Below are positions 25,560 to 55,930 of a stretch of DNA of 64,000 nt, in pieces. Position 1 is the stretch's first letter, and every line of letters begins with the position of its first letter. A program made the position numbers and the translations under genes. The notes under the pieces were generated by a model that saw only the letters and a list, made by a program, of their open reading frames with translations, was not told the DNA's origin and searched no databases. This DNA comes from an uncultured Anaerolineae bacterium (GTDB lineage Bacteria; Chloroflexota; Anaerolineae; JACIWP01), in NCBI GenBank assembly GCA_938049385.1, contig CALIBQ010000015.1, positions 1 to 64,000 on the forward strand, in the 5' to 3' direction.

Positions 25560-27931
25560 TATGGTGCCTCCTGCAGAGGGGAATGGATGGCCTGCAGGTC
25601 TTGTGCCAATCCAAGGTTGGTCGGCGCGATCGCCAGCGCGTCCATCAGCACCTTGTGCGCTTGGAGCAGTAACTCGCGCCGGCGCCCTGCATCCTCCTCA
25701 CCTTCCGCCCACCCCTGGTAGATCGCGCTCAGCCGGCGCGCCCACTCCACCTGGCGCGGCTCCGCATTCCAGGCGGCCGTCATCATGCGCGCTGCCTCCT
25801 GCAGAACCGCAGAGCGCTGTTCGGGCGCGGCCTCGAGCCGGCCGGCGGCCAGCCAGCGCTGTGCCCAGACGTCATACGCCAGGGCATCATACGGCGGAAG
25901 CTTCACCGCAATTCGCATGGTGCTGTCCACTCGTGCCCAGTCCCCCGACGGCAGGGCACGTCGGCCCAGGGCGAGGTAGGCATCGCCGGCGGCTGGCCAG
26001 CCAGCGCCGACCAGGCCTGCCAGCAGGATGACCGCTCCCGCCACTCGCCAGGGCACCGCCCGCGCCGGCCGGCACACTGCATCTGGAACATCGCTGAGCA
26101 TTTGGGCAGTGATCACCATGCATGTCAGTATGCCGGCCGTGCCAACGAGCATTTGCCCGCGCGGGTCCCCGCCGGCGGCACGCATCCCTGCGCCTGCAAT
26201 CAACACCGGGAGCAGGGAACAGCTCACCGCTCCCCGCCAGGAGCGCGCCGGCATAGTCCACGCGTATAGCAGCAAGCCCGATAACCACATTACCGCCATC
26301 AGCGGCAGGAGGCTCAGCCGGGCATCCTCCCCAACGGCGACCAGCACCCCTGTCAGGCCGGCCCCTGTGATCGCCGGCAGTACCGGCCCATGATCGCGTG
26401 CTTCCTCATCCCCTGCGTCTGCCCTGCTGGCCAGCAGGACACCCAGCAGAACATACGCCGGCAGGGATACCCCCGCCGTTCCGAACCCCACCATCAGGTC
26501 CACGAAATGACCCACCAGGGCCGCAAGCGCGGCGATCGCCGTTCCCTCCACAGCTCCGATAGGACGATGTGGGGATGTGTCCCACAGCGCCGCGGCAGAA
26601 CCGACCGTCATCCCGCCGGCGATGGCGATGCCGGCCGCCGCCGGCCAGTACGCCGCCGGCAAACCCCACATCCATCCAACGGCCAGCACCACCGCCGCGC
26701 TGGCGGCACCCGCGCCGATCCCGCGCCACCGCCTAACACGCGGTGTCAGCGCTCGCAGGCCGGCCTGCACCGCTCCCACACCTAGGGACGCCCAGCAGGC
26801 CAGGCCGGCGGCCCCCTGCGCCAGCAAGATATCCAGCACGGCATTATGCGCCCGGTCCAGCAGGAGCGGCGCATTCTCCCCGGCGGTAGGCGCGCGATAC
26901 GACAGATGATTCGGCAGTATCATCCCCTGCACGTCCAGGCCATACCCGAGGGCCAGCCGCCATGCCGGCACCTTGTGCGTCAAGAACGCGATCAGCTCCC
27001 CCCAGAACTGCCCCCTCTGCCGGCCACTGCCGGTCGGGTCCAGCCAGCCGGCCGCCTCCGGCAGGGCAAGCCCCTGCGCCAGCATCCAGATGCTGGCCAA
27101 CGCCAGCACCAGCCCTGCGGCCGCGCCCAGCAGTATGCCGGCCGTATGCCGCCGGCGCGCCGCAACTAGGGTCAGAGCCAGCGCACCGGCCAGCGCCGTG
27201 CCCAGCCATGCCCCACGTGCTCCCGATCGCCACAACAGCCATACATTGACCGCAGTCCACACGGCCAGCCAGCCGGCATACCCCGTACGCCGAGCACCCC
27301 AAGCCGCCCACAGCTCCAGCCCCATCACCGGCAGGGCCAGCCCCAGGAAGCTTCCGAGGAAGTCGGGATTCCCCAGGCTGATAAAAGCTCTTCCCAGGAA
27401 AGGATCGCCCTGCCACATGGTCGGGAGCGGCCAGCCCAGCGCCCACCAGACGCCGGCGGTTCCGATCCAACTTCCTGCCAACACGATCACCTGACGGAGT
27501 GTCCGCCATCCGCCGGGAGAACTTGCCAGCAGGCCGGCCGCGATGATGCTCGCAATCAGTGCCAGTTGGGTGAAACTGCCGAATCCCCGATGGGGGCTTC
27601 CCCATATGCTCCAGCTTACCTGCATGGACCACAGCGGCGCGGACAGGGTCAGCGCCGCCAGGCCGGCCAGTCCGACGCGTGCCGGCCGGGGCATCTGGCT
27701 CCATAGGCTCGTGATCCCGGCGCGCGTGCCGGCGGGGTCCAGCAGTAGGGCGAGGCCAACTCCGCCCAGCGCCAGCAGGACCGCCAGCCGCGCTTTGTCC
27801 GGCTCAAAGCCGAAGCTGGCCGCCGGCATGCTCCACAGCGGGATCGCCGCCAGCGCGCACAGCAGGCCGGCCCATGTCCAGCGCATGCCCGGCGCGCTGC
27901 CGCGTCCCCTTCCTCCCCTCGTCTCAGACAT
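25559..27931 (-). CDS. O-antigen ligase/Wzy-like polymerase with C-terminal TPR-like tail
   Basis: 790 aa, about 14 or more membrane helices and a long periplasm-type loop (WQGDPFLGRAFISLGNPDF) as in the Wzy_C/WaaL family, which polymerise or ligate lipid-linked glycans at the membrane. The last about 110 residues are soluble and helical with a TPR look (DWARVDSTMRIAVKLPPYDA, AWNAEPRQVEWARRLSAIYQ). The ORF track starts at 28072, which lies inside the preceding GT4 gene. I take the ATG at 27931, overlapping that gene's stop by 8 nt. Confidence 0.85.
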   Translation of the reverse strand: MSETRGGRGRGSAPGMRWTWAGLLCALAAIPLWSMPAASFGFEPDKARLAVLLALGGVGLALLLDPAGTRAGITSLWSQMPRPARVGLAGLAALTLSAPLWSMQVSWSIWGSPHRGFGSFTQLALIASIIAAGLLASSPGGWRTLRQVIVLAGSWIGTAGVWWALGWPLPTMWQGDPFLGRAFISLGNPDFLGSFLGLALPVMGLELWAAWGARRTGYAGWLAVWTAVNVWLLWRSGARGAWLGTALAGALALTLVAARRRHTAGILLGAAAGLVLALASIWMLAQGLALPEAAGWLDPTGSGRQRGQFWGELIAFLTHKVPAWRLALGYGLDVQGMILPNHLSYRAPTAGENAPLLLDRAHNAVLDILLAQGAAGLACWASLGVGAVQAGLRALTPRVRRWRGIGAGAASAAVVLAVGWMWGLPAAYWPAAAGIAIAGGMTVGSAAALWDTSPHRPIGAVEGTAIAALAALVGHFVDLMVGFGTAGVSLPAYVLLGVLLASRADAGDEEARDHGPVLPAITGAGLTGVLVAVGEDARLSLLPLMAVMWLSGLLLYAWTMPARSWRGAVSCSLLPVLIAGAGMRAAGGDPRGQMLVGTAGILTCMVITAQMLSDVPDAVCRPARAVPWRVAGAVILLAGLVGAGWPAAGDAYLALGRRALPSGDWARVDSTMRIAVKLPPYDALAYDVWAQRWLAAGRLEAAPEQRSAVLQEAARMMTAAWNAEPRQVEWARRLSAIYQGWAEGEEDAGRRRELLLQAHKVLMDALAIAPTNLGLAQDLQAIHSPLQEAP

Positions 27932-29051
27932 GCAGTGCATCCAATCTCCGCAGGCTGGCGCGTGTTCGCTCCGCGATGGCGCTGGCATGCTCCTTTGCGG
28001 CGGCAGACATCCCCCGGTACAGAACCGGGTCTGCCAGCAGACGCTCGATGGCCTCGACAGCGGCATCGGCATCGCCGGCCGGCACCACCAGGCCCGTCAC
28101 CCCATCCTGTACGGCCTCGGCCACACCGCCCGTGCGCCATGCCGCCGAAGGGACACCGCACGCCGCCGCTTCCAGGTAGACCATCCCAAACCCCTCCACC
28201 TCGCCGTCCCGCTCATCCGGCGTCGGCAGTAGGACGAACAGGTCGCCGGCGGCGTACACCGCCGGCAAATCCGCATCCGGCACATCGCCCCAGAAGTGCA
28301 CCGCTGAGGCGATGCCCAGTTCCCGTGCCAAGGCTTCCAGCCGGCGGCGCTCTGGTCCCTCCCCGACGACCCAGTACTGCAGGCCTGGAAAGCGCCGGCG
28401 CAGTCGAGGGATCAGCGAGAGCACCACATGCACCCCTTTGCGCCGCTCCAGCCGCGCCACCGTCAGGAGGATCGGGCCATCTCCGCGCGCCGGCGCCGCC
28501 TGATGACCGATATTGGGAGCGCCCAGGAAGGGATGAATGACCTCGGTCTTGTCATCGGGATACCCCGACATTGCCACCAACTCGCTGGTATATCGGCTGA
28601 TGGCCAGCACATGGTCCGCGCCGTTCAGCGCCGCGGAGAGGAAGGGCCGCGCCCACCAGCGCAGGGCCGGCTTCCGGACATCATCCCCGAACGCCCAGAT
28701 GCGGTACGGGATGCCCCAACGTCTCTGTATCAGGCGCGCCGCCAGGCCGAACGGCAGTGCCTGGCCGCATTCCAGCATTTGGAACCGGTAGCGGCGGTGA
28801 AGCAAAGGGAACAAGCATATTGGGAAGAGAAACTGCGTCAGCCGGCGCCAGCCTGGAATTCCCCGTCCGAGTGCCGGCCAGCGCAGGACCGGGAACGGCT
28901 GACGCGCGTCGAACTCTCGCGCCCCGGGGAATGCCGGCGCCGCCACGACGATGCGGTCCGCGGCGAAGGACGCCCGCTGATACAGCCAGCTCTGGATGCC
29001 GCCGCGCGCCGGCGGGAACCCCAGTGTCACCAACAGAATATCCCGTCCCAT
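27924..29051 (-). CDS. Family 4 glycosyltransferase (GT-B)
   Basis: 375 aa retaining GT-B enzyme. The N-terminal domain opens LLVTLGFPPARGGIQSWLYQ. The C-terminal domain carries LTVARLERRKGVHVVLSLIP and the nucleotide-sugar Glu segment VEGFGMVYLEAAACGVP. Sugar donor unknown. It follows the other GT4 gene by 4 nt and overlaps the ligase gene, so it is in the polysaccharide operon. Confidence 0.92.
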   Translation of the reverse strand: MGRDILLVTLGFPPARGGIQSWLYQRASFAADRIVVAAPAFPGAREFDARQPFPVLRWPALGRGIPGWRRLTQFLFPICLFPLLHRRYRFQMLECGQALPFGLAARLIQRRWGIPYRIWAFGDDVRKPALRWWARPFLSAALNGADHVLAISRYTSELVAMSGYPDDKTEVIHPFLGAPNIGHQAAPARGDGPILLTVARLERRKGVHVVLSLIPRLRRRFPGLQYWVVGEGPERRRLEALARELGIASAVHFWGDVPDADLPAVYAAGDLFVLLPTPDERDGEVEGFGMVYLEAAACGVPSAAWRTGGVAEAVQDGVTGLVVPAGDADAAVEAIERLLADPVLYRGMSAAAKEHASAIAERTRASLRRLDALHV

Positions 29052-29055
29052 TTCC

Positions 29056-30222
29056 CTATGCGCGCCCGGGGCGCCGCTCCCCCTGGCCTGACGTCAGCTT
29101 GCGGTACAGCGCCACCCATTGGGGGAGGATTACTTCAGCGCGGCAGCGCGACCAAACAGCGCGCCGGCCGGCCTCGCCCCACTCCCCGGCCTGTTCAGGG
29201 TCGGCCAGCGCTTCGCGCACCGCTTCTGCGAGCGCGACCGCATCCCCCGGCGGCACCAGCCGGCCGCTCGCACCATCCTGCACCAGCTCCGGCAGACCGC
29301 CGACGCGCGAGGCGATGACCGGCCGGCCAAGGGCCAGCGCCTCCAGCGCGGCCAGCCCGAACGCCTCGCGGAGGGAGGGAACGATCACCAGGTCGCAGGC
29401 GTACAGCCACGGGCGGATATCCGGCTGAAAGCCGGCCCAGATGATGCCCTCCGTAGAGGACCGCCGGTCCGCCGGCCCCACGACCGCCAGCCTCACATCA
29501 GGACGCTCTCGGTGGATCAATGGAAATGCCTTCAGCAGGACGTCCAGTCCCTTCTCCCGGCTGTCCCGCCCGAAATATCCCAGCAGGGGAGCCTGCTCAC
29601 CGAGGCCCAAGCGCCGGCGTGTTTCCGCCCGCCATACCTCCGCGCCGCCGGCCTCCCAGCTTGGCTCGATGAAATTGGGCAGATGAACAATGCGTTCCGC
29701 CGGCACCCCCCATCGGCGTAAGAGCCGGCATTGATGCTCCGATACCCCGATGACGCAGTCAAAGCGCGGCAGGAGAAGCCGGTCCAGGAACTCGTACAGG
29801 CGCACCCTGGCCGTAGCGCCGGTATGTCCATGACAGGTGCTTACGAGCATGATGTCAAGCCCACTCCCTCGCGCCGCCCATGCCAGCACATCACTGCGGT
29901 AATCGTTGCTGTGTACCACCAGCGGGTGCTTCTGCTGAAGCAGTGCGCGTAGGGAAGTGCCGGCCCGCCGCGACCACGGCGCAGGGTCGAGGATTTGCAC
30001 CGCCGGCACTCTATGCTCTGCGGCGAAGCGTACGGCCGGATGCTCGTCCGGCCGGCCGGACTGCTGTCGGTACAGCAGGCCCAACTCTGGCCGGAAGCCG
30101 GCAGACGCCAGAGCCTGCGCAGTATAGACCAGCCGGCGCTCAATGCCGGCGCATTCGACACTGCTTCGCAGGAACACTATATCCAGCCCAGTCGGGTTCA
30201 CCGTATCACGGCCTCTGCCCAT
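29056..30222 (-). CDS. Family 4 glycosyltransferase (GT-B)
   Basis: 388 aa retaining GT-B enzyme: an N-terminal acceptor domain (SSVECAGIERRLVYTAQAL), LLGYFGRDSREKGLDVLLKA, and the donor-site EAFGLAALEALALGRPVIAS. The ORF track opens at 30408, well inside the preceding gene. ATG at 30222 overlaps that gene by 25 nt. A GTG at 30201 that overlaps the upstream stop (GTGA) is an equally possible start. Acts in the same surface-glycan pathway as its neighbours. Confidence 0.9.
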   Translation of the reverse strand: MGRGRDTVNPTGLDIVFLRSSVECAGIERRLVYTAQALASAGFRPELGLLYRQQSGRPDEHPAVRFAAEHRVPAVQILDPAPWSRRAGTSLRALLQQKHPLVVHSNDYRSDVLAWAARGSGLDIMLVSTCHGHTGATARVRLYEFLDRLLLPRFDCVIGVSEHQCRLLRRWGVPAERIVHLPNFIEPSWEAGGAEVWRAETRRRLGLGEQAPLLGYFGRDSREKGLDVLLKAFPLIHRERPDVRLAVVGPADRRSSTEGIIWAGFQPDIRPWLYACDLVIVPSLREAFGLAALEALALGRPVIASRVGGLPELVQDGASGRLVPPGDAVALAEAVREALADPEQAGEWGEAGRRAVWSRCRAEVILPQWVALYRKLTSGQGERRPGRA

Positions 30223-32105
30223 AATCGTCTGATCACCCGCCGGTGCAGTAGCGCTTTGTCGCGCGCCGCCGGCCCAAATACCATCAGTTTCATCAGTGAC
30301 AGCAGGGTTATCATCCAGCGGTAGGCATGCCCCGCCAGCCGGCCGTGATGCTTGCAGAAATAGCGTAGGAGGCTGACCAGGGCATGAATGCCGGCTTCCT
30401 CCGGGCACAGGGCACTGCTGACAGCCCCATAATGATGCACCCTTGCCCGCCCCACATAATATATCCGCCAGCCGGCGGCATGCAAGGCCCGACAGAGGTC
30501 CACATCCTCGGCATACAGGAAATAGCGCTCATCGAATCCACCGACCTCATCCCATGCCCGCCGGCGCACGCACAGCGCCGCGCCCGACACTGCCGGCACC
30601 TCCGCAGTTTCATCTCCAGGTAGGACCGCCAAACGCGAAAACGACAGTGCCGCCAGACCAACTTTCTCCAGGAATTCCGTCCAGAGCGTGGGAAAACGCC
30701 TTGCAGAAAGGGGATACGGCCCTCCGTCCGGCGTCAGCAGTTGAGGGCCGGCCGCCCCAATTTCCGGGCGCCCCGCCAGTTCCGCAAGCAGTACCGCGAC
30801 CGCGCCGCGCTCGACTGCTGTGTCTGGATTGAGGAACCAGAGATACTCCCCGCGCGCCTGTTGGGCGGCGCGGTTGGCCGCCGCGGCAAAGCCCAGGTTC
30901 TCCGGAAAGGCCAGCACGCGGACGTCGGGAGCATGCCGGCCCAGCCATTCCACTGTTCCGTCCTCTGACCCATTGTCCGCGACGATGATTTCCGCCGGCA
31001 CATCCGCCAGCGCCGGCCGAAGGGAATCCAGGCACCGCTCCAGCGCCAGCCGGCAGTTCCAGGTCACGATAATGACGGACAATTCCGGGGATATGGGCGG
31101 TCCATCACCGCCCAGCAGGCGCGGAGCCGGCGCCGGCCGAGCGCTCGCCCAGATGCACCCCCCATTTCCCCACGCCTGTTCCAAGCCGGCGGCCAGATGC
31201 GTCAGCGGTTTCACAAGGTACCATACTGCCGGCAGATGCATCTGATGCGCGGAGGCCCAATTTCGGATGCTCCCTTCCCAGCCGACAGCGGAAGGCCGCG
31301 AGCGCGAGGTGATATCTGTAAAGCCAGCCTCCTGCAGAAGCCGGCGCAGGGCGGCCGGCGTGAAATTGTAGCGGTGCCGCGGCACGTCGAGATGCATCCA
31401 ATATCGCCCGAACAGCCGTGCCTGCAGGCTGTCCAGATTGGGGACTTCCAGGAGCAGGCGCCCCCCAGGTCGCAGAAGACGCCTGGACTCCCGCAGTGCC
31501 GCCAAGGGGGAAGTCGTATGTTCGAGGCTGTGCCAGAAGGTGATGACGTCGAACTGCTCAAGGGCAAAGGGCATTTGCTCGGCGCGGCCGGCGGCGAACG
31601 GCCCTGCACCCCACACGTCGGCAGGAGCACTGGTCAGCGCCGGCTCCAATCCGAAAGCTCGCCAGCCTAGGTCGCGCACCGCCCGGACATACTGGCCCGC
31701 ACCGCATCCGGCATCCAGCAGTTTGCCCTGGCGAACATAGGGGGGCATATGGGACAAACGGCCGGCAAGCAACCATCCCACCACCGTCCCAAGCACCCTC
31801 GCCAGCCAAGGAGGCGAAGGCGCCGGATAGCCGTATCGGCATGAGAGCACAGTGCGTTTCAGCCATCGCCGCCAGCCGGCGCGCGCCGGCACAGGCGCCA
31901 GCTCCACCGCCGGCAAAGGCGGCACTTCGACGGGCTCCGCCAGCCATGCCAAGCCGCAGTGCCGGCAGTGCCGCAGTATGTACTCGCCGGGGGTTCCCAG
32001 CCGCCAGTCGCGAACCCTTATCTGCTCGCCGAGGTCTTTCCAGCCGCAGATGGGACAGCCGGCCGGCCCATCGTCTTGGGACAGCACATCCGTTCGCCAA
32101 TCCAT
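30198..32105 (-). CDS. Fusion of a zinc-finger SAM methyltransferase and a family 2 glycosyltransferase
   Basis: 635 aa with two enzymes in one chain. The N-terminal part has a CPICG..CRHCG zinc pair (residues about 17-50), then a class I methyltransferase with LLDAGCGAGQYVRAVRDLG, FWHSLEHTTSPLAALRE and LLRPGGRLLLEVPN (about 125-260). The C-terminal part from about 345 is a rhamnosyltransferase-like GT2: LSVIIVTWNCRLALERCLDS, VADNGSEDGTVEWL, FLNPDTAV and GFDERYFLYAEDVDLC. The methylase may cap or modify the sugar that the transferase adds; that is inference. No frameshift is seen at the junction. It is 9 nt from the glycosidase gene upstream. Confidence 0.9.
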   Translation of the reverse strand: MDWRTDVLSQDDGPAGCPICGWKDLGEQIRVRDWRLGTPGEYILRHCRHCGLAWLAEPVEVPPLPAVELAPVPARAGWRRWLKRTVLSCRYGYPAPSPPWLARVLGTVVGWLLAGRLSHMPPYVRQGKLLDAGCGAGQYVRAVRDLGWRAFGLEPALTSAPADVWGAGPFAAGRAEQMPFALEQFDVITFWHSLEHTTSPLAALRESRRLLRPGGRLLLEVPNLDSLQARLFGRYWMHLDVPRHRYNFTPAALRRLLQEAGFTDITSRSRPSAVGWEGSIRNWASAHQMHLPAVWYLVKPLTHLAAGLEQAWGNGGCIWASARPAPAPRLLGGDGPPISPELSVIIVTWNCRLALERCLDSLRPALADVPAEIIVADNGSEDGTVEWLGRHAPDVRVLAFPENLGFAAAANRAAQQARGEYLWFLNPDTAVERGAVAVLLAELAGRPEIGAAGPQLLTPDGGPYPLSARRFPTLWTEFLEKVGLAALSFSRLAVLPGDETAEVPAVSGAALCVRRRAWDEVGGFDERYFLYAEDVDLCRALHAAGWRIYYVGRARVHHYGAVSSALCPEEAGIHALVSLLRYFCKHHGRLAGHAYRWMITLLSLMKLMVFGPAARDKALLHRRVIRRLWAEAVIR

Positions 32106-32114
32106 AGGGTATGG

Positions 32115-33482
32115 TCAGCGGGCTCCCCGGTACATGCGCGGCAGATAGAGCGCCGGCCCCGGCAGTTCTGCAAGCTCCAGGGGATAGACAATGCGCGGGT
32201 CCGGCCCCACCGGGAAGCTGGTGACGCCGTCCCGCCGGCCGTCCAGGTCCTCCGGTGAGCCGTCCAGGACGCCGCTCCGCCGGCCGCCCTTGTCCACCAG
32301 CCACACGCCGGGCGCCGGCATGGACATGGTCTGCGTGACCGTCTCGCTCCAGCAGACGGTCTTTTCGCGGCCGCCGGCGCCAAACACATAGGCCTCCAGC
32401 GTGCCCTGCGAGACATCGCGGAGATACTGCAGGCCGGCCAGCTCGCGGGTAAAGGTCTGATACGCGGTGTACGATGGCTTAGCGGAGCCATCCGCCCGCA
32501 GAAGCCCGTACTTGCGCGGGTCGTTTGGGTCATCCATCATCTCGAACCAGACGATGGCGCGCAGGCCGGCGGCATGGGCACGGGCATGCGCCTGCACCAG
32601 ATAGCGACTGCTGGCCTCCTCGCTGTAATCCTGCCTGTCCTCCGCCGGCCCGTCGCTGGGATAACCCACCTCCGTCAGGATAATGGGTTTCTGCAGGCCG
32701 GCCTGTGCCAGCACGCCGCGCACATAGGCCGTTTTCCCGATCAGGTCCCTGCCGAAAGGGTCCCAGCGCCAGTGGAATGCCCGGTAATAGTGGAAATTCA
32801 TCATGTCAAACTGCTTCCCGCCGGGGCTGGCCAGCACCTGGTTCAGGAACATGTGGTTGAAATAGTCATCCAACAGCTCCATCGCCAGGCCGCCGAACAC
32901 CATCTGGGCCTGCGGGTCCACCGCTTTCACAGCGGGATAGACCTGGCCCAGCAGTGCGGCATACTGCGCCGGATACGCCCCCCAGCATCCGCCCTGCTGG
33001 TGCATATCGGGGCGCTGATTGTCCGGCTCGTTGTACAGCTCCCAGTACTTGATGTGATAGGGTGCGCCGCTGTAGCGTGTTACTGCCGCCTGCAGGAAGC
33101 TGACCAGCCGGCCCACTGGCACCTTATCTATCGGCCCGCAGGGGGTGGTAGCCGCCCAGTTCGGATTGTCCCGCACGGTCACCATGATGGCAAAGCCGGC
33201 CTGCGCCATAGCGCCGAAGAGCGCATCGTATTTGTCCCAAATGTAGGTCGATGGGTTGGTGTTCGCCGGCTCGACCTCCGCCCAGCGCAGGTTGACCCGA
33301 ATCAGCCCCGCGCCCACCTCACCTGCCGGCCCCAGCAGATCGCGCTGGGAGAGGATATCCCGGAACTGGATGCCGTAGAAGGGCAGGGCCGGCGCCTGGA
33401 TGGCGCTCGTCCCGCTTTCGGCCGGCGGTAACACTGCCCCTAGCACCAGCACTGCTATCAATATCAGCGCCCTTTTCATCAT
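32115..33482 (-). CDS. Secreted clan-A glycoside hydrolase-like protein
   Basis: 455 aa. Signal peptide (RALILIAVLVLGAVLPPAES), then a TIM barrel. The two catalytic carboxylates of clan GH-A are visible: YWELYNEPDNQR (acid/base Glu) near residue 147 and IILTEVGYPSDG (nucleophile Glu) near residue 265. It could belong to GH39, GH5 or a related family. The C-terminus ends ALYLPRMYRGAR, resembling the Leu-Pro tail seen on other secreted proteins here. It is a paralogue of the next gene upstream (33556-35142), with the same motif order and similar wording throughout. Likely trims or remodels the polysaccharide made by the operon. Confidence 0.85.
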   Translation of the reverse strand: MMKRALILIAVLVLGAVLPPAESGTSAIQAPALPFYGIQFRDILSQRDLLGPAGEVGAGLIRVNLRWAEVEPANTNPSTYIWDKYDALFGAMAQAGFAIMVTVRDNPNWAATTPCGPIDKVPVGRLVSFLQAAVTRYSGAPYHIKYWELYNEPDNQRPDMHQQGGCWGAYPAQYAALLGQVYPAVKAVDPQAQMVFGGLAMELLDDYFNHMFLNQVLASPGGKQFDMMNFHYYRAFHWRWDPFGRDLIGKTAYVRGVLAQAGLQKPIILTEVGYPSDGPAEDRQDYSEEASSRYLVQAHARAHAAGLRAIVWFEMMDDPNDPRKYGLLRADGSAKPSYTAYQTFTRELAGLQYLRDVSQGTLEAYVFGAGGREKTVCWSETVTQTMSMPAPGVWLVDKGGRRSGVLDGSPEDLDGRRDGVTSFPVGPDPRIVYPLELAELPGPALYLPRMYRGAR

Positions 33483-33555
33483 CCGCGTGCTCCTTCCACA
33501 TTCTCGCTCCCCTGACGGTCCGCGCGGGTTGTTTGCGCGGTCTAGCCCCGACCCC

Positions 33556-35142
33556 TCATTGGGCCAGGATTAAGGGGAGCCAGACGCGTTCCCCGACAGC
33601 CGGCGTCCCCGTCGGAGATGGCGCAGGATCGGGCGTGGCGGTCGGCGTCCCGCTGGGTGTGGCGGTGCTCGTAGCAGTGGGCGTGGTGGTGGGAGTCGGG
33701 GTTGCTGTGGCCGTAGGGGATGGTGTGACTGTGCCGGATGGTATCGCGGTATTCGTCGGCGTCGGCGTCGCAGAGTAGCGCTCCACAAAAACAGGCTCGT
33801 TGGTCAGCCAGAGCGTGATTTTGCCATCCCGCTTGCCATCTTTATCTTCGGCGCTCCCATCGGCGATGACCACTGCCTCATACGGGTCGCAGGTGGTATC
33901 ACCGCACTGCCGGCGCCACACCAGCGCCTGTGTCCATTCCACATACATCCTCTTATACCCATCATTCCACACGCACCACCCTATGATTAATTCTATGCCG
34001 TCCTTATTGAATTGATACGCCTCTAAGCCATACGGACTTGGATCAGGGGTTTTGAAATACGGGCCAATATATGCCGCACCGCTCAGTTTCCCCACCAGGA
34101 AGCGGTACACGTCGTAGCCGGCCTGTGGGGACAACTGCGAATTCAGCAGGCCGTACAGACGCACATCCTCGGGACCGTCCACCATCTGATACCAAATGAT
34201 GATGCCGATGCCCTCCGCAACCGCCCGCACATTGCCTTGGATGACATAGCGCGAGTTGCCCCTTGGGGTATAGCCTTCCGCCGGCGGGCCGGCGTAGGGG
34301 TGTCCCAATTCCGTGATCACAAAGGGTTTCATCTGCACGCCGTTGCGCGTGAGCACCGATTTCAGTGCATCCAATTTGCCCTGCAGGTCCACGCGCGTGG
34401 AAGAATCCCAGTTCGTATGATATTCATGAAAGTAATGGAAATTCATGACATCGAAATACGGGCCGCCGCCGGCGCGCAGTACATCATCCAGGAAGTTCAT
34501 GTTCAGGTGGTCCACATAGCGGTACTCATACCCGAGCGCGCCGATGAGCACGATGGCCTGTGGGTCCGCCTGCTTGATAGCGGGATAGACCACCTTCAGC
34601 ATGTCGGCATAGGCGCGGCCGGCGTTCCCCCAGCACCCGCCCAGATTCACAAACCAGCCGTCGGTGCGCTTGTTGTCCGGCTCGTTGTACAGCTCCCAGA
34701 CCCGGATATTGTATGGAGGCTGGCTGTAACGAGATACAGCGGCGCGAGCGAAGCGCGCCAGCTCGTTCGGGTCATACAGCGGCCCACAGCGCGTCGCCGC
34801 CGCCCATCCGGGATTGTCGCGGATCGTTACCACGAGCTGAAGGCCGGCCTCCGCCGCGCGCCGGAAAATCGCGTCGTAAGAGGCCCAGTTGTACTGCGGA
34901 GGGTCTGTCTTGACTGGCTCTACGCTGTCCCATGACAGCTTGACGCGCGCCCAGCGGGCGCCGGCGTTCACCGCATACGACAGCCCCTGCGATTCGTCAA
35001 TGGTGCCCCGCATGTCCACCCCGAAGGGGGAGGCCGGCGGCCAGTTCGGCAGGTTCCCCTGCCCCCAGCTCATTTGCTGAAAAGCCAGTCCCGCCAAGAG
35101 CAAAATAACAGAGATACTGATGAACAGGTACGTGCGCCGCAT
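33556..35142 (-). CDS. Secreted clan-A glycoside hydrolase with Thr/Pro stalk
   Basis: 528 aa. Signal/anchor helix (TYLFISISVILLLAGLAF), TIM barrel with VWELYNEPDNKRT and FVITELGHPYAG, then a Thr/Pro-rich stalk from about residue 455 and the tail RVWLPLILAQ. Close paralogue of 32115-33482. The ORF track extends to 35808, but that stretch is the antisense-frame shadow of the Thr/Pro gene upstream. ATG at 35142 has TAAGGAC just before it. The stalk and tail suggest display at the cell surface. Confidence 0.85.
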   Translation of the reverse strand: MRRTYLFISISVILLLAGLAFQQMSWGQGNLPNWPPASPFGVDMRGTIDESQGLSYAVNAGARWARVKLSWDSVEPVKTDPPQYNWASYDAIFRRAAEAGLQLVVTIRDNPGWAAATRCGPLYDPNELARFARAAVSRYSQPPYNIRVWELYNEPDNKRTDGWFVNLGGCWGNAGRAYADMLKVVYPAIKQADPQAIVLIGALGYEYRYVDHLNMNFLDDVLRAGGGPYFDVMNFHYFHEYHTNWDSSTRVDLQGKLDALKSVLTRNGVQMKPFVITELGHPYAGPPAEGYTPRGNSRYVIQGNVRAVAEGIGIIIWYQMVDGPEDVRLYGLLNSQLSPQAGYDVYRFLVGKLSGAAYIGPYFKTPDPSPYGLEAYQFNKDGIELIIGWCVWNDGYKRMYVEWTQALVWRRQCGDTTCDPYEAVVIADGSAEDKDGKRDGKITLWLTNEPVFVERYSATPTPTNTAIPSGTVTPSPTATATPTPTTTPTATSTATPSGTPTATPDPAPSPTGTPAVGERVWLPLILAQ

Positions 35143-35186
35143 GTCCTTACCTCGATAAGGGAATATCGTCAAACCGATTGCGGCCT

Positions 35187-35870
35187 TCAACGCCGCCGGC
35201 GTGCCAGGAGCCATAATCCGGTGGCCACGCCAGCGCCCAACGCGGCCACGGCCAGCAGGAGATACCCCTCCAGGCGCGCATCGCGTGCCGTGGCCGCCGG
35301 CGTGCTCGTTGGAGTATTGAACGCCGGCGTGGGCGTCTTGGTCGGTGTGGACGGTACCGGCGTCCAGGTAGCGCTGGAGGTCGGGGTTGGTGTTTCTGTC
35401 GGTGGCAAAGCTGTGGTGGGCGCGGGCGTCGGCGTGGGTGAGTTCGTGGGCGTCCGCGTCGGCGTGGCAGTCGAAGTCGGCGTTCTGGTCGCTGTCTCGG
35501 TCGCTGTCGGAGCAGGTGTATGCGTCGGTGACGGCGCCGGCGTGAAGGTGGAGGTTGGCGGCGGTGGGGGAGCCGGCGTGTCGGTCGGGCGTGGGGTAGC
35601 TGTCGGAGGCGCGGGGGTATTGGTGGGCGGCAGGGTCGGCGTCGGGGGCGTCGTCTCCCACTGGAACGGGGCGCGAAACAGCGGCAGGAAGCCCTCCGGG
35701 GCCGTCTGCGCCGGCAGGGCGCCCGCCGATACCGCCGGCCGTCCGTTCGCCGGCCAGGCCAGCACCAACACCGTCAGCAGAACGGCGAGGATATCCGCCA
35801 AGGGCCACCGTCTCCCCGGCCCTGACTGGTGCTTGTTCACCGGACCCGGGTTATCCTGATCCGCATCCAT
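35187..35870 (-). CDS. Membrane-anchored Thr/Pro-rich surface protein
   Basis: 227 aa, no enzyme domain. Layout: short basic N-terminus, a membrane or signal helix ([16 protein letters not shown]), the segment GFLPLFRAP, a stalk of about 120 residues that is almost only Thr and Pro with some Ala and Ser, and a C-terminal helix ending LWLLARRRR, which is anchor-like. The composition suggests an O-glycosylated spacer exposed on the surface. Function unknown; it lies in the polysaccharide operon between the GT39-like and glycosidase genes. Confidence 0.8.
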
Positions 35871-35879
35871 CGCACAGCC

Positions 35880-37271
35880 TCAGTGGTAGAATGGCAGGAC
35901 GTAACCCATCAGACACAAGGCGTCAAACAGCAGTAAGGCCAGCCCGCCGGCCCAGCCAGCCGTTCGCCGCCAGGCCGCCGGCACCCATTCCCTCAGCCCC
36001 CACACGAACAGCGTCGCCAGCGGGATCACGGCCGGGAAGAGGTACCGTCCCTGCGGCACTACTCCGAAGCGGTAGCTCAGGTACAGCACCTCCTTCGCCA
36101 TGATAAGCAAGAACGCGGCAACTGCTATCAGCAAATAGACGATCAGGGCGCGCCGCAGATATCCCTCTGGCGGCTGGTGATGTAGTCCTTTGAGCAGGCC
36201 GGCGCCGGCGGCGCCGCACACCGCCAGCAGGACAAAATACCAGCCCTCGGCCAGGCGCACGTTCAGCCAGCCGAAGCGAGCCCAGAAGCTCTCGAAGATC
36301 AGGCGGGAGTAGTAGAGATAGGGTGTGCGAAGCAGGGCCTCGCCGTACCTGCCGCTCGTCAGCAATTCTACCATATCCTGGGGAAGATGGAAAAAGCGCC
36401 AGCCGGCCGCCAACAGCTCCCGGCCAGCCGGCCAGAGCAGGGCCGCGCCGGCCGCCAACAGTACCCCCGTCAGAGTGCCCAGTGCCCAGGCCGTTAACCG
36501 CCGGCCGGCCCTCTCCGGCCAGAGTGAACCGAGGCTGATCAGGGCGAATGCCGCCGGCGCGATGAAACCGGTGCGCTTGGTCAGCAGAGCCAGCAGGGCG
36601 CAGACCAGCATGCCCAACACCCTGCCCCATGTCAGCCGCTCCCGCAGGGCGCCGGCGCCGAACAAGAAGACGCCGGCGGAGAAAAAAGCCGCCAGATTGT
36701 CGTTGTTCGCCGCGGCATGGATAAAGGCGAACATAGGCAGGCCGGCGATAAACAAGGCTGTGCCAGCCGCAAAGCCAGGTTGGTTTGGGATGAGCGTCCG
36801 GCCGGCCAGCCATGCCGCGACCACAATGCCGGCGCCCAGCAGTGCCGAGAGCCAGCGCACCAGCCGCAGTTGTGCCGCGATATTCCCCAGGCCGCTCCAG
36901 CGCACCAGCCGGCCGACCAGCCAGTAATACAGCGGCGGCTGATGCGTCTCATGGGCGAAGCCCGGCCAGATATCATCCAGGGTGCGCGGGGGATTCTCCG
37001 GGTCATAGGGATTGATGAAATAGCCGTACTGCCAGAAACGGTGCTCCTCCATCGAGGAAATGATGCGCGCTTGGATGGCCGCGGCCGCCGGCGTCCCCGG
37101 CTCCGCCCCCTCGGCCATCAGCAGGATGTACTCCATATGGCGCGGCTCATCCGGCCCCTGCCATGGAGGGACGAGATAGAGGTACAGCAGTTGATGGGCA
37201 AGGGAAAGTATGAACAACAGGAGGGCAGTGCCGGCCGCCGGCCGTATCTTCGCCAAGCGTTCGGATGGCAT
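35880..37271 (-). CDS. GT39/PMT-like membrane glycosyltransferase
   Basis: 463 aa with about 10-12 membrane helices. After the first helix comes PPWQGPDEPRHMEYI, the acidic first-loop motif of lipid-carrier-dependent (GT-C) transferases; HQPPLYYWLVG follows as in ArnT/PMT-like proteins. It would move a sugar from a polyprenyl carrier to an acceptor outside the membrane. The ORF track starts at 37337. I use the ATG at 37271, which shares a base with the stop of the sugar transferase gene (TGATG). Confidence 0.85.
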   Translation of the reverse strand: MPSERLAKIRPAAGTALLLFILSLAHQLLYLYLVPPWQGPDEPRHMEYILLMAEGAEPGTPAAAAIQARIISSMEEHRFWQYGYFINPYDPENPPRTLDDIWPGFAHETHQPPLYYWLVGRLVRWSGLGNIAAQLRLVRWLSALLGAGIVVAAWLAGRTLIPNQPGFAAGTALFIAGLPMFAFIHAAANNDNLAAFFSAGVFLFGAGALRERLTWGRVLGMLVCALLALLTKRTGFIAPAAFALISLGSLWPERAGRRLTAWALGTLTGVLLAAGAALLWPAGRELLAAGWRFFHLPQDMVELLTSGRYGEALLRTPYLYYSRLIFESFWARFGWLNVRLAEGWYFVLLAVCGAAGAGLLKGLHHQPPEGYLRRALIVYLLIAVAAFLLIMAKEVLYLSYRFGVVPQGRYLFPAVIPLATLFVWGLREWVPAAWRRTAGWAGGLALLLFDALCLMGYVLPFYH

Positions 37272-38677
37272 CAATACGACCCCTTCCCCGAGAGGATAGC
37301 CGGCACCGTCTTCGCCATGATTTTCAGGTCCTGCCACAGCGAGTAATGCTGGATGTAATCAATCTCCAGCCGCACTCGGTCGTCAATCGGCAGGTCCGCC
37401 CGTCCGTTCACCTGCATCGGGCCTGTCAGCCCGGGCTTGACCAGCAGGCGCTTCCTCTGCCAGGCGTTATAGGTCTGCACGATGCGCGGCTCCTCGGGCC
37501 GCGGCCCCACCATGCTCATGTCCCCCCGCAGGACGTTCCAAAGCTGAGGAAGCTCGTCCAGGCTGAAGCGCCGCAGGACCTTACCGATGCGGGTCACGCG
37601 CGGGTCATCGGGGATTTTCAGCGGCGGCTTCTCCCAGCCGCGCTCCCGCAGAAGCGCTTGCAGGCGCGCCTCGGCATCGGGCACCATGGTGCGGAATTTG
37701 TACATGGTGAAAATGCAGCCGTCCTGCCCCACCCGCGGCTGGCGGAACAGCACCGGTCCAGGGGAATCGAGCCGCACTGCCAGGGCAATGCCGGCCATCA
37801 GCGGCGCCGTCAGCGCCAGCAGGACCGCCGAGGCCGTGATGTCCAGGGCACGCTTGAGCGCTGACTGCCAGGCCGTCAGGCGCAGATCGCTCACGCCGAT
37901 GAGCGAAATGCCGTACAAATCTTCCACGCGCGGGCAGAAAGCGATCTCGCCGGCATAGTCCGGTGCCAGGTACACCCGCACCCCCAGCTCCTGCAGGGCC
38001 AAGATATCCTCCGTCAGCGGCAGGCTGTCCCCAAACGGCAGGGTGAATATGACGCAGTCCGCATCATGTTCCCGCACCAGCGCCATCAGGCGTTCCATGC
38101 CCCCCAGACAGGGAGCGCCGGCCCCTGGCGGCGCGTTTTCCCCGCCGGCATACCCTACCAGCTCGAACCCCGCCCAGGGATGCGTCTGGATGCGCCGGCC
38201 GATCTCCAGCGCCGTCGGCCCACCGCCGACAATGAGGGTGCGCAGGGCCTCCCCGCGCCGATGACGGTGCGCCAGCACCACCATCCGCGCCCAGCGCGCC
38301 AGCAGTAGCAGGAGGAAATCCAGCACTGCGAAATAGACCACCAGCAGGCGGGAGAAATCGCGCATGCGGGTGAAGTACAGCCCGCCGGCGAACAGCATCA
38401 GCGCCGTGCTCAGCGCCGCCAGCAGGGAGCGCAGTTCGTCCCCGAAGGGCCGCCGGCGCCCGTCATATACCCCGAAGAAAAGGAAGCACCCTGCCCAGAT
38501 GGCCGCTACCATGAGGCACACGGCCGGCGTCAAGTACACCGTGCCCGGCGCGATCTCCCGGCCGAAAGGAATGCGGTGCCGCAGGAAATCGGCTGTCCAA
38601 AGCGCCAGCAGGGTCAAGGCCAGGTCGGCCAGCAGTATCGGCAGGGGGCGGAACAACGGACGTTTTCTGGGCTTCAT
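37271..38677 (-). CDS. Polyprenyl-phosphate sugar-1-phosphate transferase (WcaJ/WbaP-like)
   Basis: 468 aa. Four or five N-terminal membrane helices, a CoA-binding-like Rossmann segment (IVGGGPTALEIGRRIQTHPW), then the C-terminal bacterial sugar transferase domain from about residue 270 with MYKFRTMVPDAEARL, SLDELPQLWNVLRGDMSMVG, PRPEEP and KPGLTGPMQVNGR. It starts glycan assembly by loading sugar-1-phosphate onto undecaprenyl phosphate at the inner face. First gene of the minus-strand operon, which fits its role as the initiating enzyme. Confidence 0.93.
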   Translation of the reverse strand: MKPRKRPLFRPLPILLADLALTLLALWTADFLRHRIPFGREIAPGTVYLTPAVCLMVAAIWAGCFLFFGVYDGRRRPFGDELRSLLAALSTALMLFAGGLYFTRMRDFSRLLVVYFAVLDFLLLLLARWARMVVLAHRHRRGEALRTLIVGGGPTALEIGRRIQTHPWAGFELVGYAGGENAPPGAGAPCLGGMERLMALVREHDADCVIFTLPFGDSLPLTEDILALQELGVRVYLAPDYAGEIAFCPRVEDLYGISLIGVSDLRLTAWQSALKRALDITASAVLLALTAPLMAGIALAVRLDSPGPVLFRQPRVGQDGCIFTMYKFRTMVPDAEARLQALLRERGWEKPPLKIPDDPRVTRIGKVLRRFSLDELPQLWNVLRGDMSMVGPRPEEPRIVQTYNAWQRKRLLVKPGLTGPMQVNGRADLPIDDRVRLEIDYIQHYSLWQDLKIMAKTVPAILSGKGSY

Positions 38678-39266: not shown

Positions 39267-40943
39267 ATGAATGGCAGGATGCGCGCGCTGCGCCGGCCAA
39301 TCGAGCTTCTCTTCACACTCCTTATCGGGGTGAGCATACTGCGGCTGACAGGGTGTCTGGCTCCGGCCTCAGCCGCCAAACGCGTCACCATCGAAACCAG
39401 CGACATGCGGCTGGTCATGTACACCACCGCCGGCACCGTGCGTGAGGTCCTCCAGCAGGCCGGCGTCTCCCCAGGACAAATGGACCGCGTCGAACCCGAC
39501 CTCTGGCAGGAAATTCAGGACGGCTCCACCGTGCGGGTGGTGCGGGTGGAAGTGCGCGAGGAGACGGAGCGCCGGCCCATCCCCTTCTCCCAAAAGATCA
39601 TCAAGAGCGAGGCCCTCCCACCGGGCGAGCGGAAACTGCTCCAGCTCGGGGTCAATGGTGAGGAGGAGATCGTCTACCGCATCGTGCTCGAGGACGGGCA
39701 GGTCGTCGAGCGCTCAGAGGCACTGCGCACCATCATCAAACCCCCGGTGGACGAGATCATCGCCGTCGGCCTGCAGGCAGACCTCCCATCGGTTCCCATC
39801 ACTGGTACCCTGGTCTATATCTCCGCCGGCAATGCCTGGGTCATGCGCGGCACCAGCGCCAGCCGCCGGCCGCTGACTTCTTCCGGTGACCTGGACGGCC
39901 GTGTGCTGGCGCTCTCGCCCGACGGGGAATGGTTGGTGTATTCGCGGGCGGAACCCCACGGCCGGCCCTATGTCCTCAATTCCCTCTGGATTGTTGGCAC
40001 CTCTATCCTCAACGAGCCGTCACATCCGCTGGGCATCGAGGGGGTAATATACGCCGAATGGCTGGCTGATGGCAAGGGCATCATCTATTCCACGGCGGAG
40101 CGCACCAGCGGCGCACCCGGCTGGCGTGCCCATAACGATATCTGGAAGGCGAATATCTACGGTCTGAGGCCGCCCGGCCGGCGCACCGGCAGTGAAAGGA
40201 TCACCGCCCTGACGCAGAAGCTCTTGGACCCGCCGGCGGAAACGGTCTATAGCTGGTGGGGCACCCATTTCGCCCTTTCCCCCGACGGCCGCTGGCTGGC
40301 CTACGGCCAGGCGGATGAGGTCGGTGTGATTGACCTGCGCAGTAACACCCGATCGCCCCTGCTCCATTTTGCCGCTTACCACACCTACGGAGAGTGGGTC
40401 TGGCTGTCGGAGCTGAGCTGGTCGCCTGACAGCCGCTATCTGGCCTGTTCCGCGCATGGGCAGGTGGAAGGCACGGACCCGGAGGACAGCCCGGTGTTTG
40501 ACCTGTGGGTGGTGGAGCGCACCGGGCAGGTGAGGGTGCCGCTGGCTCCGGACGTGGGGATGTGGACCGCGCCGGCCTGGTCGCCGGCCAGACGCCTGCC
40601 GGACGGTGAGAGAGCCAGCGTCATCGCCTTCGGTGTGGCCTACAGCCCGCGCAGTTCCCAGGACAGCCGCTATGATCTCTACGTGATGGACCGGGACGGG
40701 AGCAACCGCCGCAAGCTGTTCCCGCCGGCCGGCATGCCCGGCCTGGTGGCGCCGGAGCTGGCCTGGTCGCCCGACGGCCGACAGATGGTCATCGCGCACC
40801 AGGGATACTTGTACCTGCTTGATATAGAAAGCGGCACGTACCAGCAGTTGACTGCTGATGGGCAGAGTGGTCAACCGCGCTGGGCCGGCGAGGAGGATAT
40901 GGCATATGGCGAGGAAACCATCCCCAAGGATTCTGGTCGTTGA
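39267..40943 (+). CDS. Lipoprotein with DUF348, G5 and beta-propeller (PD40/TolB-like) domains
   Basis: 558 aa. The N-terminal signal ends LRLTGC, a fair lipobox. A DUF348 unit (VTIETSDMRLVMYTTAGTVR) follows at about 38-85, then a G5 domain (PIPFSQKIIKSEALPPGERK to about residue 165), then a WD40-like propeller with repeated LSPDGEWLVYS, LSPDGRWLAYG, WSPDSRYLACS and AWSPDGRQMVIA motifs. DUF348 and G5 usually occur on cell-wall hydrolases and bind wall polymers or glycans; the propeller is a docking surface. GGAGG precedes the ATG. Its end overlaps the kinase gene by 38 nt, so the two may form a sensory pair. Confidence 0.85.
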   Translation: MNGRMRALRRPIELLFTLLIGVSILRLTGCLAPASAAKRVTIETSDMRLVMYTTAGTVREVLQQAGVSPGQMDRVEPDLWQEIQDGSTVRVVRVEVREETERRPIPFSQKIIKSEALPPGERKLLQLGVNGEEEIVYRIVLEDGQVVERSEALRTIIKPPVDEIIAVGLQADLPSVPITGTLVYISAGNAWVMRGTSASRRPLTSSGDLDGRVLALSPDGEWLVYSRAEPHGRPYVLNSLWIVGTSILNEPSHPLGIEGVIYAEWLADGKGIIYSTAERTSGAPGWRAHNDIWKANIYGLRPPGRRTGSERITALTQKLLDPPAETVYSWWGTHFALSPDGRWLAYGQADEVGVIDLRSNTRSPLLHFAAYHTYGEWVWLSELSWSPDSRYLACSAHGQVEGTDPEDSPVFDLWVVERTGQVRVPLAPDVGMWTAPAWSPARRLPDGERASVIAFGVAYSPRSSQDSRYDLYVMDRDGSNRRKLFPPAGMPGLVAPELAWSPDGRQMVIAHQGYLYLLDIESGTYQQLTADGQSGQPRWAGEEDMAYGEETIPKDSGR

Positions 40944-42519: not shown

Positions 42520-45500
42520 ATGCCTACCCCGCGCTCGGTAAAGCTGTCCCACCTTTTCCTGCTGATCCTGCTCCCACTGGTCTGCGCAGCGGCCGCCGGC
42601 CTGGCCTGGTCCGCTCTGCCGACGCCGGCCGCCCCCCTGCCGGGACCGGACCCGCGCATGTGGCCGCCCTACGGCATCAACCTTTCTCCCTGGCATCTGT
42701 CCGATGCGGGGTGGAACGCCCAACTGGATGAGGTCGAGCAAATCCTCCCGGGCGGCTGGGTGCGCGTCCGCTTCCGCTGGGCGGAGCTGGAGCCGGCACC
42801 CGGTCAGTTCGATTGGACGTTAGCGGACCGCATTGTGGGTGCCCTGCGCGGCCGGCGGTTGCGCCTGCTGGCTGTGCTGGAGACCAGCCCGGCCTGGGCA
42901 AGGGGCGAGCAGGACCAGGATAATCCCTATGCCCCGCCAAAAGAGCGCCGGCACTTCGGCGCCTTTACCGCGGCCTTCGCCGGCCGCTACGGGGACACAG
43001 CCGCCGCTTATCAAATTTGGGATGAACCCAACATCATCCCGCATTGGGGCAGCCGCTATGTGAACGCCGCAGAATACACCGACCTCCTGCGCGAAGCCGC
43101 CGTGCAGATTCGCTCCGTGGACCCCGACGCCGTTATCCTGGCCGGCGGGCTGGCGCCCAACATCGAACCCGGCGGCCTGAATCAAAGCGATATCATCTTC
43201 CTGCGGGAAATGTATGCCGCCGGCGCCGCGCAGTGGTTCGACGCGCTGGCCGCCAAGCCCTACGGCCTGCGCGCCGGCCCGGACGACCCACCGGACCCCA
43301 CCCAGCTCAATTTCCAGCGGGTCTCCCTTCTGCGCCAGGTGATGCTGGAAGCCGGCGACGGGGCTACCCCCATTTGGGGCGTGGAATTCGGCTGGAACAG
43401 CCTGCCGGCGGACTGGCAGGGTGCGCCATCCCCCTGGGGCACCACTGACGAGGAAACACAGGCCCGCTGGACGCTGGAGGCGGCCGGCATCGCCCACCGC
43501 TCCTGGCCGTGGATGGGGCCGCTCCTTTGGGCAGATTGGCAGCCCGATGCCCCGCCGGATGACCCGCGCTGGGGCTTCGCGGTGGTGGACAGCGAAGGCC
43601 GGCCGCGCCCGGTGCTGGCATCCCTGCGCGCCCTGCCGGCCCTCTCCCAAACCGCCGGCGCTGGCGTCCATGCCTTCTGGGAGCCTTCGGTGACCATCGA
43701 AGGGAATTGGCGCATCGCCCCTGATGGAGCCGACATCGGGGAGGATGGGGCGGTTATGCGCATCCGCTTCGTCGGGACGGGCATTGACCTGGCTGTGCGG
43801 CGCGGCCCCTATTGGGCCTACCTGGAGGTGGCCGTTGACGGCCGGCCGGCCAACGCCCTGCCGAGCGACGAGGCCGGCCGGAGCTACCTGGTGCTGTACG
43901 ACCCCCTGCGGGCGCCGGCGGTAGTACCGCTGGCGCGCGGCCTGCCGGCCGGCGAGCATGAAGCACGGATTGTCGCGCACGGCGGCTGGGACCAGTGGGC
44001 GCTGGCATATTTCGCTGTGCATGAGGGCACGCCGGCGCGGTCCCCCTGGCCGGCGGCCGCCGTAGGAGCGCTCGCCGGCCTGCTGATGGACACTGCCATC
44101 GTATTGGGTGTGCGTGGTGTGTTTCAAAAGCTGACCCTTTTGCTCGCCGGCCTATGGGGGAGGGCACATAATTGGTTCACGGGGCGGCCCCTCTCCCTGC
44201 GGATTACCATCCTGGCCGCCGCCGGCGCTCTCTTCCTCCTGGCGCAGGGTTCCATCTTGCCGCTGATCGGTCTGCTGGGCTGTGCTGTGATGATCCTGCT
44301 CTGGCCGCCGGCCGGCCTGGTCCTGGCGCCGGCGGGCTTCCCGCTCTTCCTGCGCCCGCCGGTGCTTTTCGGATACACTGTCCCCAATCTGGAATCCATC
44401 ATCTGGCTGACACTGGTTGGCCTGCTCTGGTGCACTGCACTGCGCGGCGGCCTGCGGGATTTGTGGAGCCGGCTCTGGCGGACCCGTTCCTGGGTAGATG
44501 CAGGGGTACTGGGATTGCTGTTTGCGGCCGGCCTGAGTACAATATTTGCTCAGCATCCGGGCACTGCTGGGCACGAGTGGCGTACGGTGTTCCTGGGGCC
44601 CGCCCTGCTGTACGGCCTCTGGCGGGCGATGCCGGGGGGCCGGCAGGAAGCGCAGTGGCGCTTGCTGGCCGTGGATGCGCTCATCGCCGGCGGAGTGATC
44701 GCCGCGCTGGCTGGCATCGTCCAGTGGGTCTCGGGCGCCGGCCTGATCACCGCCGAGGGGGTGGCACGGGTGCGCGCCTGGTACGGCTCGCCCAACAACC
44801 TGGCGCTGTACCTGGAGCGGCTGGTGCCGGTTGCACTGTCCATGGCGCTATTGGGGGGCGCCGGCCGCCGGCGTTTGACCTACGGCCTGGCGCTCCTGCC
44901 TCTGTTGACGGCGCTTTATCTCACGTTTTCGCGCGGCGCCTGGCTGTTGGGACTGCCGGCGTCCCTCATCGTGATGGGCGTAGCGCGCGGCGGCAGATGG
45001 CGCTGGGGGGCGCTGGCCGGCGTCCTGCTCATCGGCATAATGCTCCTGCCGCTGGCCGGCACGGAGCGCCTGCAGAGCTTGCTGGACACATCGGCCGGCA
45101 CCGGCTTCGTGCGCCTGAAGCTCTGGCAGGGCACCTGGAATATGATTCGCGAGCACCCGGTGCTGGGGGTCGGGCCGGACAATTTCCTGTACCTGTACCG
45201 CACCCGCTACGTCCTGCCGGCGGCATGGGAGGAGCTGAACCTCTCCCATCCGCACAACATCGTGCTGGATGCCTGGACCCGCACCGGCATATTGGGGCTG
45301 GCGTCACTGGGGGTCCTGCTGACGGCGTTGGTACGCCGGCTCTGGCGCATGTCGCGGCAGGCCGGGGAGCCGGCTGAGCGGGCGCTGTATATCGGCCTGC
45401 TGGGTTCGCTGGCCGCTTCCCTGGCCCACGGCCTGATTGACAATTCGTTTTTCCTGGTGGACCTGGCGATGGTATTGATGATGACCGCCGGCCTGGCGGC

Positions 45501-45531
45501 GCGCCCTGAACGGCCGGCGGAAGAACAATAA
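42520..45531 (+). CDS. Fusion of a clan-A glycosidase-like domain and an O-antigen ligase/polymerase
   Basis: 1003 aa. One N-terminal membrane helix, then an extracytoplasmic TIM barrel of about 350 residues with [12 protein letters not shown] (acid/base Glu near 172) and [10 protein letters not shown] (nucleophile Glu near 290). A beta-rich linker to about 510 follows, and then about 12 membrane helices of Wzy_C type with [46 protein letters not shown] and [11 protein letters not shown]. Glycosidase and ligase active sites would both face the outside. It is the second Wzy-like protein in the island. GTG/ATG choice is clear (ATG at 42520). Confidence 0.88.
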
Positions 45532-45562
45532 ATTGGACGAGAGAATCGGGAGGAGGAATCCG

Positions 45563-46513
45563 ATGCGCGTGCTCATCACCGGCGGTGCCGGCTTCATTGG
45601 CTCTCACCTCTGTGACTATTTTCTGGAAAAGGGCCATACCGTCATCGCCATGGATAATCTGGTCACCGGCTCGACGCGCAATATCGAACATCTCATCGGC
45701 CATGAACGCTTCCTGTTCATCAAGCATGATGTAACCGAATACATCTACCTGAAAGGCCCGATAGACGCCGTCCTGCACCTGGCATCCCTGCCCAGCCCGG
45801 TGGACTACCTGCGTCATCCCATCAAGACCCTCAAGGTTGGCGCCCTTGGCACGCATAAGACCCTGGGTTTTGCTCTGGCCAAAGGAGCGCGCTATCTGCT
45901 GGCTTCCACATCGGAGGTCTACGGAGACCCGGAGGTGCATCCCCAGCCCGAATCATACTGGGGCCACGTCAACCCGGTCGGCCCGCGCGGCGTCTACGAC
46001 GAGTCCAAGCGCTTTGCTGAGGCCATGACTATGGCCTATCACCGCGCCCACGGCCTGGATACCCGCATCGTGCGCATCTTCAACACCTACGGTCCCCGCA
46101 TGCGTCTGGACGACGGCCGGGTAGTGCCCAACTTCATCAAGCAGGCCCTGTTGGGAGAGCCGCTGACAGTGTACGACTCTGGGGAGCGCACCCGCTCCTT
46201 CTGCTACGTCAGCGACCTGGTGGACGGCATCTACCGCCTGCTGATGTCCGACGAGGTGGAGCCGGTCAACCTAGGCAACCCCTGTGAGATCACCATCCGG
46301 GAGTTCGCCGAGAAGGTCAAGGAGATCGCCGGCAGTACCTCTCCCATCACCTACATCACGCCGGCCGATGACCGCACGCGCGACGACCCGCGCACCCGTC
46401 GGCCGGATATCTCCAAGGCGCGCCGCATCCTGGGCTGGGAGCCGAAGGTGAGCCTGGATGAGGGTCTGCGCCTGACCGTGGAGTGGTTCCGCGAGTACCT
46501 GGGGCTGAAGTAA
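45563..46513 (+). CDS. NAD-dependent epimerase/dehydratase, UDP-glucuronate decarboxylase-like
   Basis: 316 aa, extended SDR. The NAD motif [14 protein letters not shown] is at residues 7-20, followed by [10 protein letters not shown], the catalytic STSEVYGDP and YDESK near residue 145, then FNTYGPRM and [13 protein letters not shown]. The combination with [15 protein letters not shown] is typical of UDP-xylose synthase (UXS), which makes UDP-xylose for surface glycans. A related UDP-glucose epimerase role cannot be excluded. GGAGGAATCCG lies before the ATG at 45563; the ORF-track start is an upstream TTG. Confidence 0.87.
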
Positions 46514-55894: not shown

Positions 55895-55930
55895 CCTCCC
55901 GCAGGAACGCATCCTGCGGGAGGTCTCTTT
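55895..55930. terminator. Bidirectional intrinsic terminator
   Basis: CCTCCCGCAGGA and TCCTGCGGGAGG form a perfect 12-bp stem around ACGCA. On the plus side TCTCTTT follows, on the minus side GCTTTTCG. It ends both ridA (+) and the large secreted protein (-), whose stop codon touches the stem. Confidence 0.9.

Follow-up and report, generated by a model that had tools for sequence, protein, structure and literature searches.

A PslG-like barrel fused to a Wzy-type polymerase/ligase in Chloroflexota: a candidate glycan guide whose catalytic glutamates are often lost

Enzymes of the Wzy superfamily transfer a lipid-linked glycan onto an acceptor. WaaL, a solved member of this Wzy_C superfamily (PDB 7tpg/7tpj), attaches O-antigen to lipid A and carries no fused barrel. 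Polysaccharide assembly systems also contain proteins of a polymer-cleaving-type fold, as is generally known for PgaB, BcsZ, AlgL, and PelA (PMC5933820, PMC6813494); these belong to other fold families than the barrel described here or are encoded by separate genes, and none was found fused to Wzy in our searches. The nearest solved relative of that barrel is PslG of P. aeruginosa (GH39; PDB 4zn2/5bx9/9g17). PslG is an endo-beta-glucanase (PMC11912335) and a membrane-associated member of a polysaccharide assembly complex (PMC6813494). Its catalytic pair is E165/E276 (PMC6813494), which has been seen with a covalent inhibitor (PMC11912335). Why a hydrolase should be needed in polysaccharide assembly operons is not settled, and published accounts of PslG in Psl synthesis disagree (PMC6813494).

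We analyzed a gene that joins these two kinds of protein in the window, that is, the whole stretch of 64,000 nucleotides from an uncultured Anaerolineae bacterium. As the first-pass annotation had stated, it is a single uninterrupted frame of 1003 codons on the plus strand, running from the ATG at 42520 to the stop at 45531. The encoded protein of 1003 aa starts with a signal anchor, which is followed by a clan-A barrel; a predicted beta-rich linker and a TM helix then lead to the C-terminal Wzy_C polymerase/ligase. The N-terminal hydrophobic signal anchor (residues 12-30; 42553..42609) has a hydropathy peak of 2.46, and the PslG-like barrel follows at residues 48-376 (42661..43647). Residues 42-367 matched the solved PslG in a phmmer search against the PDB (E=1.8e-15; 5e-32 with a profile), and GH39 beta-xylosidases also matched the barrel profile at about 1e-12 to 1e-9. 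Both Glu motifs claimed earlier were located by alignment with PslG. D168-E169 of WDEPN (43021..43026) is aligned with N164-E165, the Glu being the acid/base and the Asp replacing the clan-A Asn, and E289 in WGVEFGWN (43384..43386) is the counterpart of the nucleophile E276. The layout of catalytic motifs is thereby shared; a place in a polysaccharide assembly complex and endo-beta-glucanase activity would be further likenesses. In contrast, PslG is a separate, unfused protein with Asn164 before its acid/base Glu, and its host is gamma-proteobacterial, with an outer membrane.

The linker (residues 385-500; 43672..44019) is conserved and showed a weak CE2_N match; it probably adopts a jelly-roll-like fold. 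Our own HMM of the linker matched most fusions and also separate barrel genes. A TM helix placed by hydropathy (residues 513-531; 44056..44112) separates the outer domains from the Wzy half (residues 560-1003; 44197..45528). In the latter, PF04932 Wzy_C matched residues 791-929 (E=4.8e-20; 72.3 bits against a curated cut-off of 31.7), and the WaaL structure 7tpg was matched by profile with E=3.8e-12. R865 (45112..45114) fell on the Arg in the VRLKIW motif of WaaL, and the outer-loop H910-P-H912 (45247..45255) of HPHN aligned with EHAHN. The first-pass annotation had proposed a domain search with PF04932 and GH5/GH39 profiles; the Wzy_C part was borne out, whereas the Pfam GH5/GH39 profiles gave no match to the barrel at E<=0.1. 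Weak GH42 and CE2_N matches to the fusion protein fell below the Pfam cut-off. An AF2 prediction on a two-sequence alignment reached a pLDDT of 36, too low to be of use. Judging from the signal anchor, hydropathy, and the positive-inside pattern of basic loops, the barrel and the catalytic loop of Wzy (H910, H912) would lie on the same outer face.

Full-length matches in a single frame turned up when 400 Chloroflexota genomes were searched, and in all we extracted 140 fused barrel-Wzy proteins from 44 Chloroflexota families (by family codes). Same-genus copies are 83-88% identical, and one of them (genome G400) has 995 aa and 83% identity. A sequencing join or frameshift was thus ruled out, and the fusion claimed earlier is genuine, its unfused counterparts being adjacent genes. 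Among 396 genomes of the window's class, matches at E<=1e-100 were obtained in 145, some of them partial. The 140 fusions are the top matches to this query; outside Chloroflexota, the searches covered plasmids, phages, and viral contigs. Relatives of the fusion were not found in the viral contigs scanned, and tblastn against plasmids and phages returned barrel-only matches and no fusion. In sister lineages, the barrel and Wzy occur as adjacent co-oriented genes (L065, L067, L079, L084, L085, and L086), a barrel-plus-linker gene lying directly upstream of the Wzy gene. When Wzy domains are compared, those from fusions and those from unfused genes form one group, apart from the second Wzy found in the same operons. 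A Deinococcus aetherius plasmid (L098 2653-6594) encodes a glycosyl hydrolase of 1048 aa that matches the barrel, and the gene immediately downstream is annotated as an O-antigen ligase; the same pairing therefore exists, unfused, outside Chloroflexota. One 1236-aa fusion (L056 1390-5100) matches the barrel twice, in the overlapping stretches 50-307 and 306-567, which may be either an assembly duplication or a real repeat. No paper on a barrel-Wzy fusion was found in a literature search whose coverage mostly excluded subscription papers.

We then compared the catalytic residues across the fused family. Both Glu residues were present in 48 of the 140 fused barrels (22 WDEPN-type and 26 WNEPN-type fusions), and at least one was lost in 92; because the top matches over-represent the query's clade, this share of 34% is valid for the sample and not for the phylum. 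Position 289 was occupied by E (54 proteins), A (23), H (19), N (16), S (11), Q (6), D (5), and others, and position 169 by E (118), N (11), Q (9), and two others. The nucleophile column ranked 218 of 335 in conservation. W167, P170, N171, W176, Y186, G291, and W292 were conserved at 98-100% in the fused barrels, and the barrel framework together with R865 and H912 of the polymerase at 94-100%. Within the Wzy half, R865, H912, and D974 were 100% conserved (R865 and H912 in 138/138 each), and H910 was found in 137/138, so the outer-loop Arg/His residues of the superfamily are kept. On a Wzy-only tree, the intact or lost state requires at least 11 changes, of which only 4 are forced by well-supported (starred) branches, and the letter at 289 requires 37; the degenerate clade has long branches on this tree. 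Since most members are without the catalytic pair, ordinary hydrolysis by two Glu residues cannot be what the fused barrels have in common, and retention of the barrel despite the lost Glu indicates that it does something else. Coupled polymerization and trimming had been suggested earlier, with loss of the catalytic Glu in orthologues named as evidence against it; as a general function, this suggestion is not supported, given the loss in 92 of 140.

Of 32 complete separate barrels encoded in this set of loci, 30 contained the catalytic pair. Two short separate barrels of one family (L053 7383-8639 and L096 15032-16288; 418 aa) have WHEPN and an Ala in place of the nucleophile, indicating that inactivation is not confined to fused barrels. 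The barrel could alternatively be a transglycosylase or an enzyme of altered mechanism, in which D168/E169 or other residues catalyze, for example, attachment of the polymer to an acceptor. Most WDEPN-type proteins without E289 do retain D168 together with E169, and conservation is dense around the cleft end. However, no consistent replacement carboxylate appears, as HN/H, HE/A, DQ/E, DE/N, and other combinations occur, and we regard this alternative as highly improbable.

The window protein is of the WDEPN type and lies inside the degenerate clade, but E169 and E289 are both present in it and in its relatives from the same genus. Conservation of both Glu, raised in the first-pass annotation, therefore holds for this copy and its genus, but not for the family. 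Among 51 proteins, the window copy had appeared to be the sole same-class keeper of both residues; this was dropped after wider sampling. To describe the cleft, intact barrels (26 fused with NE/E and 32 separate, 2 of the latter without the nucleophile) were set against the WDEPN-type proteins (n=114, defined as not N-E/E). There were 57 columns conserved at >=90% in the intact barrels, and six of these were below 30% in the WDEPN-type set (119, 159, 168, 175, 289, and 338); columns 168 and 289 are partly circular because of that definition, whereas 119, 175, and 338 are independent of how the set was drawn. The window protein has the replaced state at 119, 159, 168, 175, and 338 and keeps only E289 of the six, so that R119, N168, E175, and W338, near-invariant in intact barrels, are lost. 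Arg at column 119 is found in 25/26 NE/E fusions, while most of the WDEPN clade has V or L and the window protein has V119 (42874..42876). Glu at column 175 is likewise found in 25/26 and Trp at column 338 in 26/26, both being at 0% in the WDEPN clade; the window protein has H175 (43042..43044) and A338 (43531..43533). The residue before the acid/base Glu, D168 here, is Asn in PslG, in the WNEPN fusions, and in nearly all separate barrels. PslG itself has no Arg at position 119 in the phmmer alignment, and a change at 119 alone is therefore no argument for inactivity.

As both Glu are kept in a remodelled cleft, cleavage by this copy is uncertain, and from its residues we consider it doubtful that the window barrel would still cleave glycan. 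A rival reading takes the window protein as a polymerase coupled with an active endoglycosidase, which would cleave or edit the polymer during its synthesis, in the manner of PslG with Psl, BcsZ with cellulose, and AlgL with alginate. The catalytic pair in this genus and in the 48 fusions speaks for it, many WNEPN fusions are located behind a second intact barrel gene, and the catalytic activity of PslG has been reported as necessary for Psl production (PMC6813494). Against it stand the four replaced residues, one of which corresponds to PslG Asn164 (= residue 168), seen to bond the -1 sugar in the crystal (PMC11912335), and the loss of a catalytic Glu in most orthologues. We consider this reading unlikely.

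Against same-genus copies, the barrel had a dN/dS ratio of 0.16 and the linker one of 0.10, compared with 0.26-0.33 in the Wzy half, indicating that the barrel is under purifying selection, stronger than that on Wzy, and is not decaying. Such selection would also be expected of a structural or docking domain whose conserved face touches the Wzy loops or other secreted proteins, the glycan not being its ligand, and the top conserved columns do include fold-type Pro, Gly, and Trp. However, many conserved positions, as placed by motif, fall in the clan-A motif loops (WxEPN, xGW) at the sugar-binding end, and we judge a pure docking role quite improbable.

We lean towards reading the fusion as a Wzy-type glycan polymerase/ligase that acts outside the cytoplasm and has a PslG-like barrel tethered to it, which would bind or guide glycan, cleavage being optional. 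Its Wzy half would move the lipid-linked glycan to an acceptor, and the barrel cleft may bind the emerging glycan and present, position, or measure it for the polymerase. Glycan binding would then be the role common to all family members; hydrolysis by the barrel was probably ancestral, would still be on in the WNEPN clade, and appears to have been lost repeatedly among the relatives that share a clade with the window protein. For a glycosidase fold whose cleft end is conserved, we infer that holding or guiding a nascent glycan is the simplest role. Of the functions offered by the first-pass annotation, the glycan-binding guide fits best, with binding deduced from conservation. On the other side, barrel conservation could reflect fold stability or contact with Wzy, and the window's genus keeps both Glu, which a pure binder does not need. 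More tentatively, there may be a phylum-wide class of Wzy polymerases that have incorporated a PslG-like pseudoglycosidase, inactivated time and again, which guides the glycan or gauges its length. In a hydrolase fused to a polymerase, the repeated removal of catalysis without loss of the domain would separate a binding role from a cutting role, and swapping natural intact and inactive barrels makes the hydrolase question testable. If our reading is true, active and inactive forms stand side by side, and sequence reveals where cutting gave way to holding. Labelling such fusions as glycosidases or O-antigen ligases from domain matches would mislead.

The host envelope bears on the role of the Wzy half. 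Neither LpxC nor Omp85 gave a match in the host genome (98% complete; controls positive), which sets this protein apart from WaaL and makes ligation to lipid A implausible; "O-antigen ligase" in the LPS sense was thus excluded. The same genome gave six Wzx-type and six Wzz-type matches, five of the latter above the cut-off; with the priming transferase of the window, the partners expected for a Wzx/Wzy pathway polymerase are present. The Wzy half is a putative polymerase/ligase, whose residues would suit polymerization of repeat units and ligation to an acceptor alike.

Glycan-assembly genes occupy 25559..38677 of the same island on the minus strand and include a priming sugar transferase (37271-38677), a DUF2142 protein, and GTs. 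As noted in the first-pass annotation, a separate Wzy-like protein (25559-28072) and two separate secreted barrels with NEP/E motifs (32115-33482 and 33556-35808) are also encoded here. The start of the 33556-35808 frame is probably too early, since about 220 N-terminal residues look non-coding and a signal-like start, MRRTYLFISISVILLLAG, lies inside. On the plus strand, a secreted protein with G5 and a beta-propeller (39267..40943; Pfam, homologue cluster) precedes the fusion, and several other loci have a homologue of it in the same upstream position. A hybrid response regulator/histidine kinase (40858-42510) overlaps the G5-propeller gene and lies between it and the fusion. An SDR NDP-sugar epimerase/dehydratase (45533..46513, plus strand; PF01370/PF16363) is the next operon gene, two bases past the fusion stop, and an SDR epimerase follows the fusion on the same strand in about nine loci. 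In one compact glycan operon (L062), a barrel, the fusion, the SDR epimerase, and a second Wzy are followed in a row by a membrane protein resembling LPG-synthase-TM and by two GT4. Further along the window, at 55929-59567, a 1212-aa secreted protein has weak GH42 similarity and two CBM96-type repeats. Elsewhere in this genome, on contig C56 (L089 9530-12496 and its neighbour), a pair of divergent PslG-like barrels is encoded side by side.
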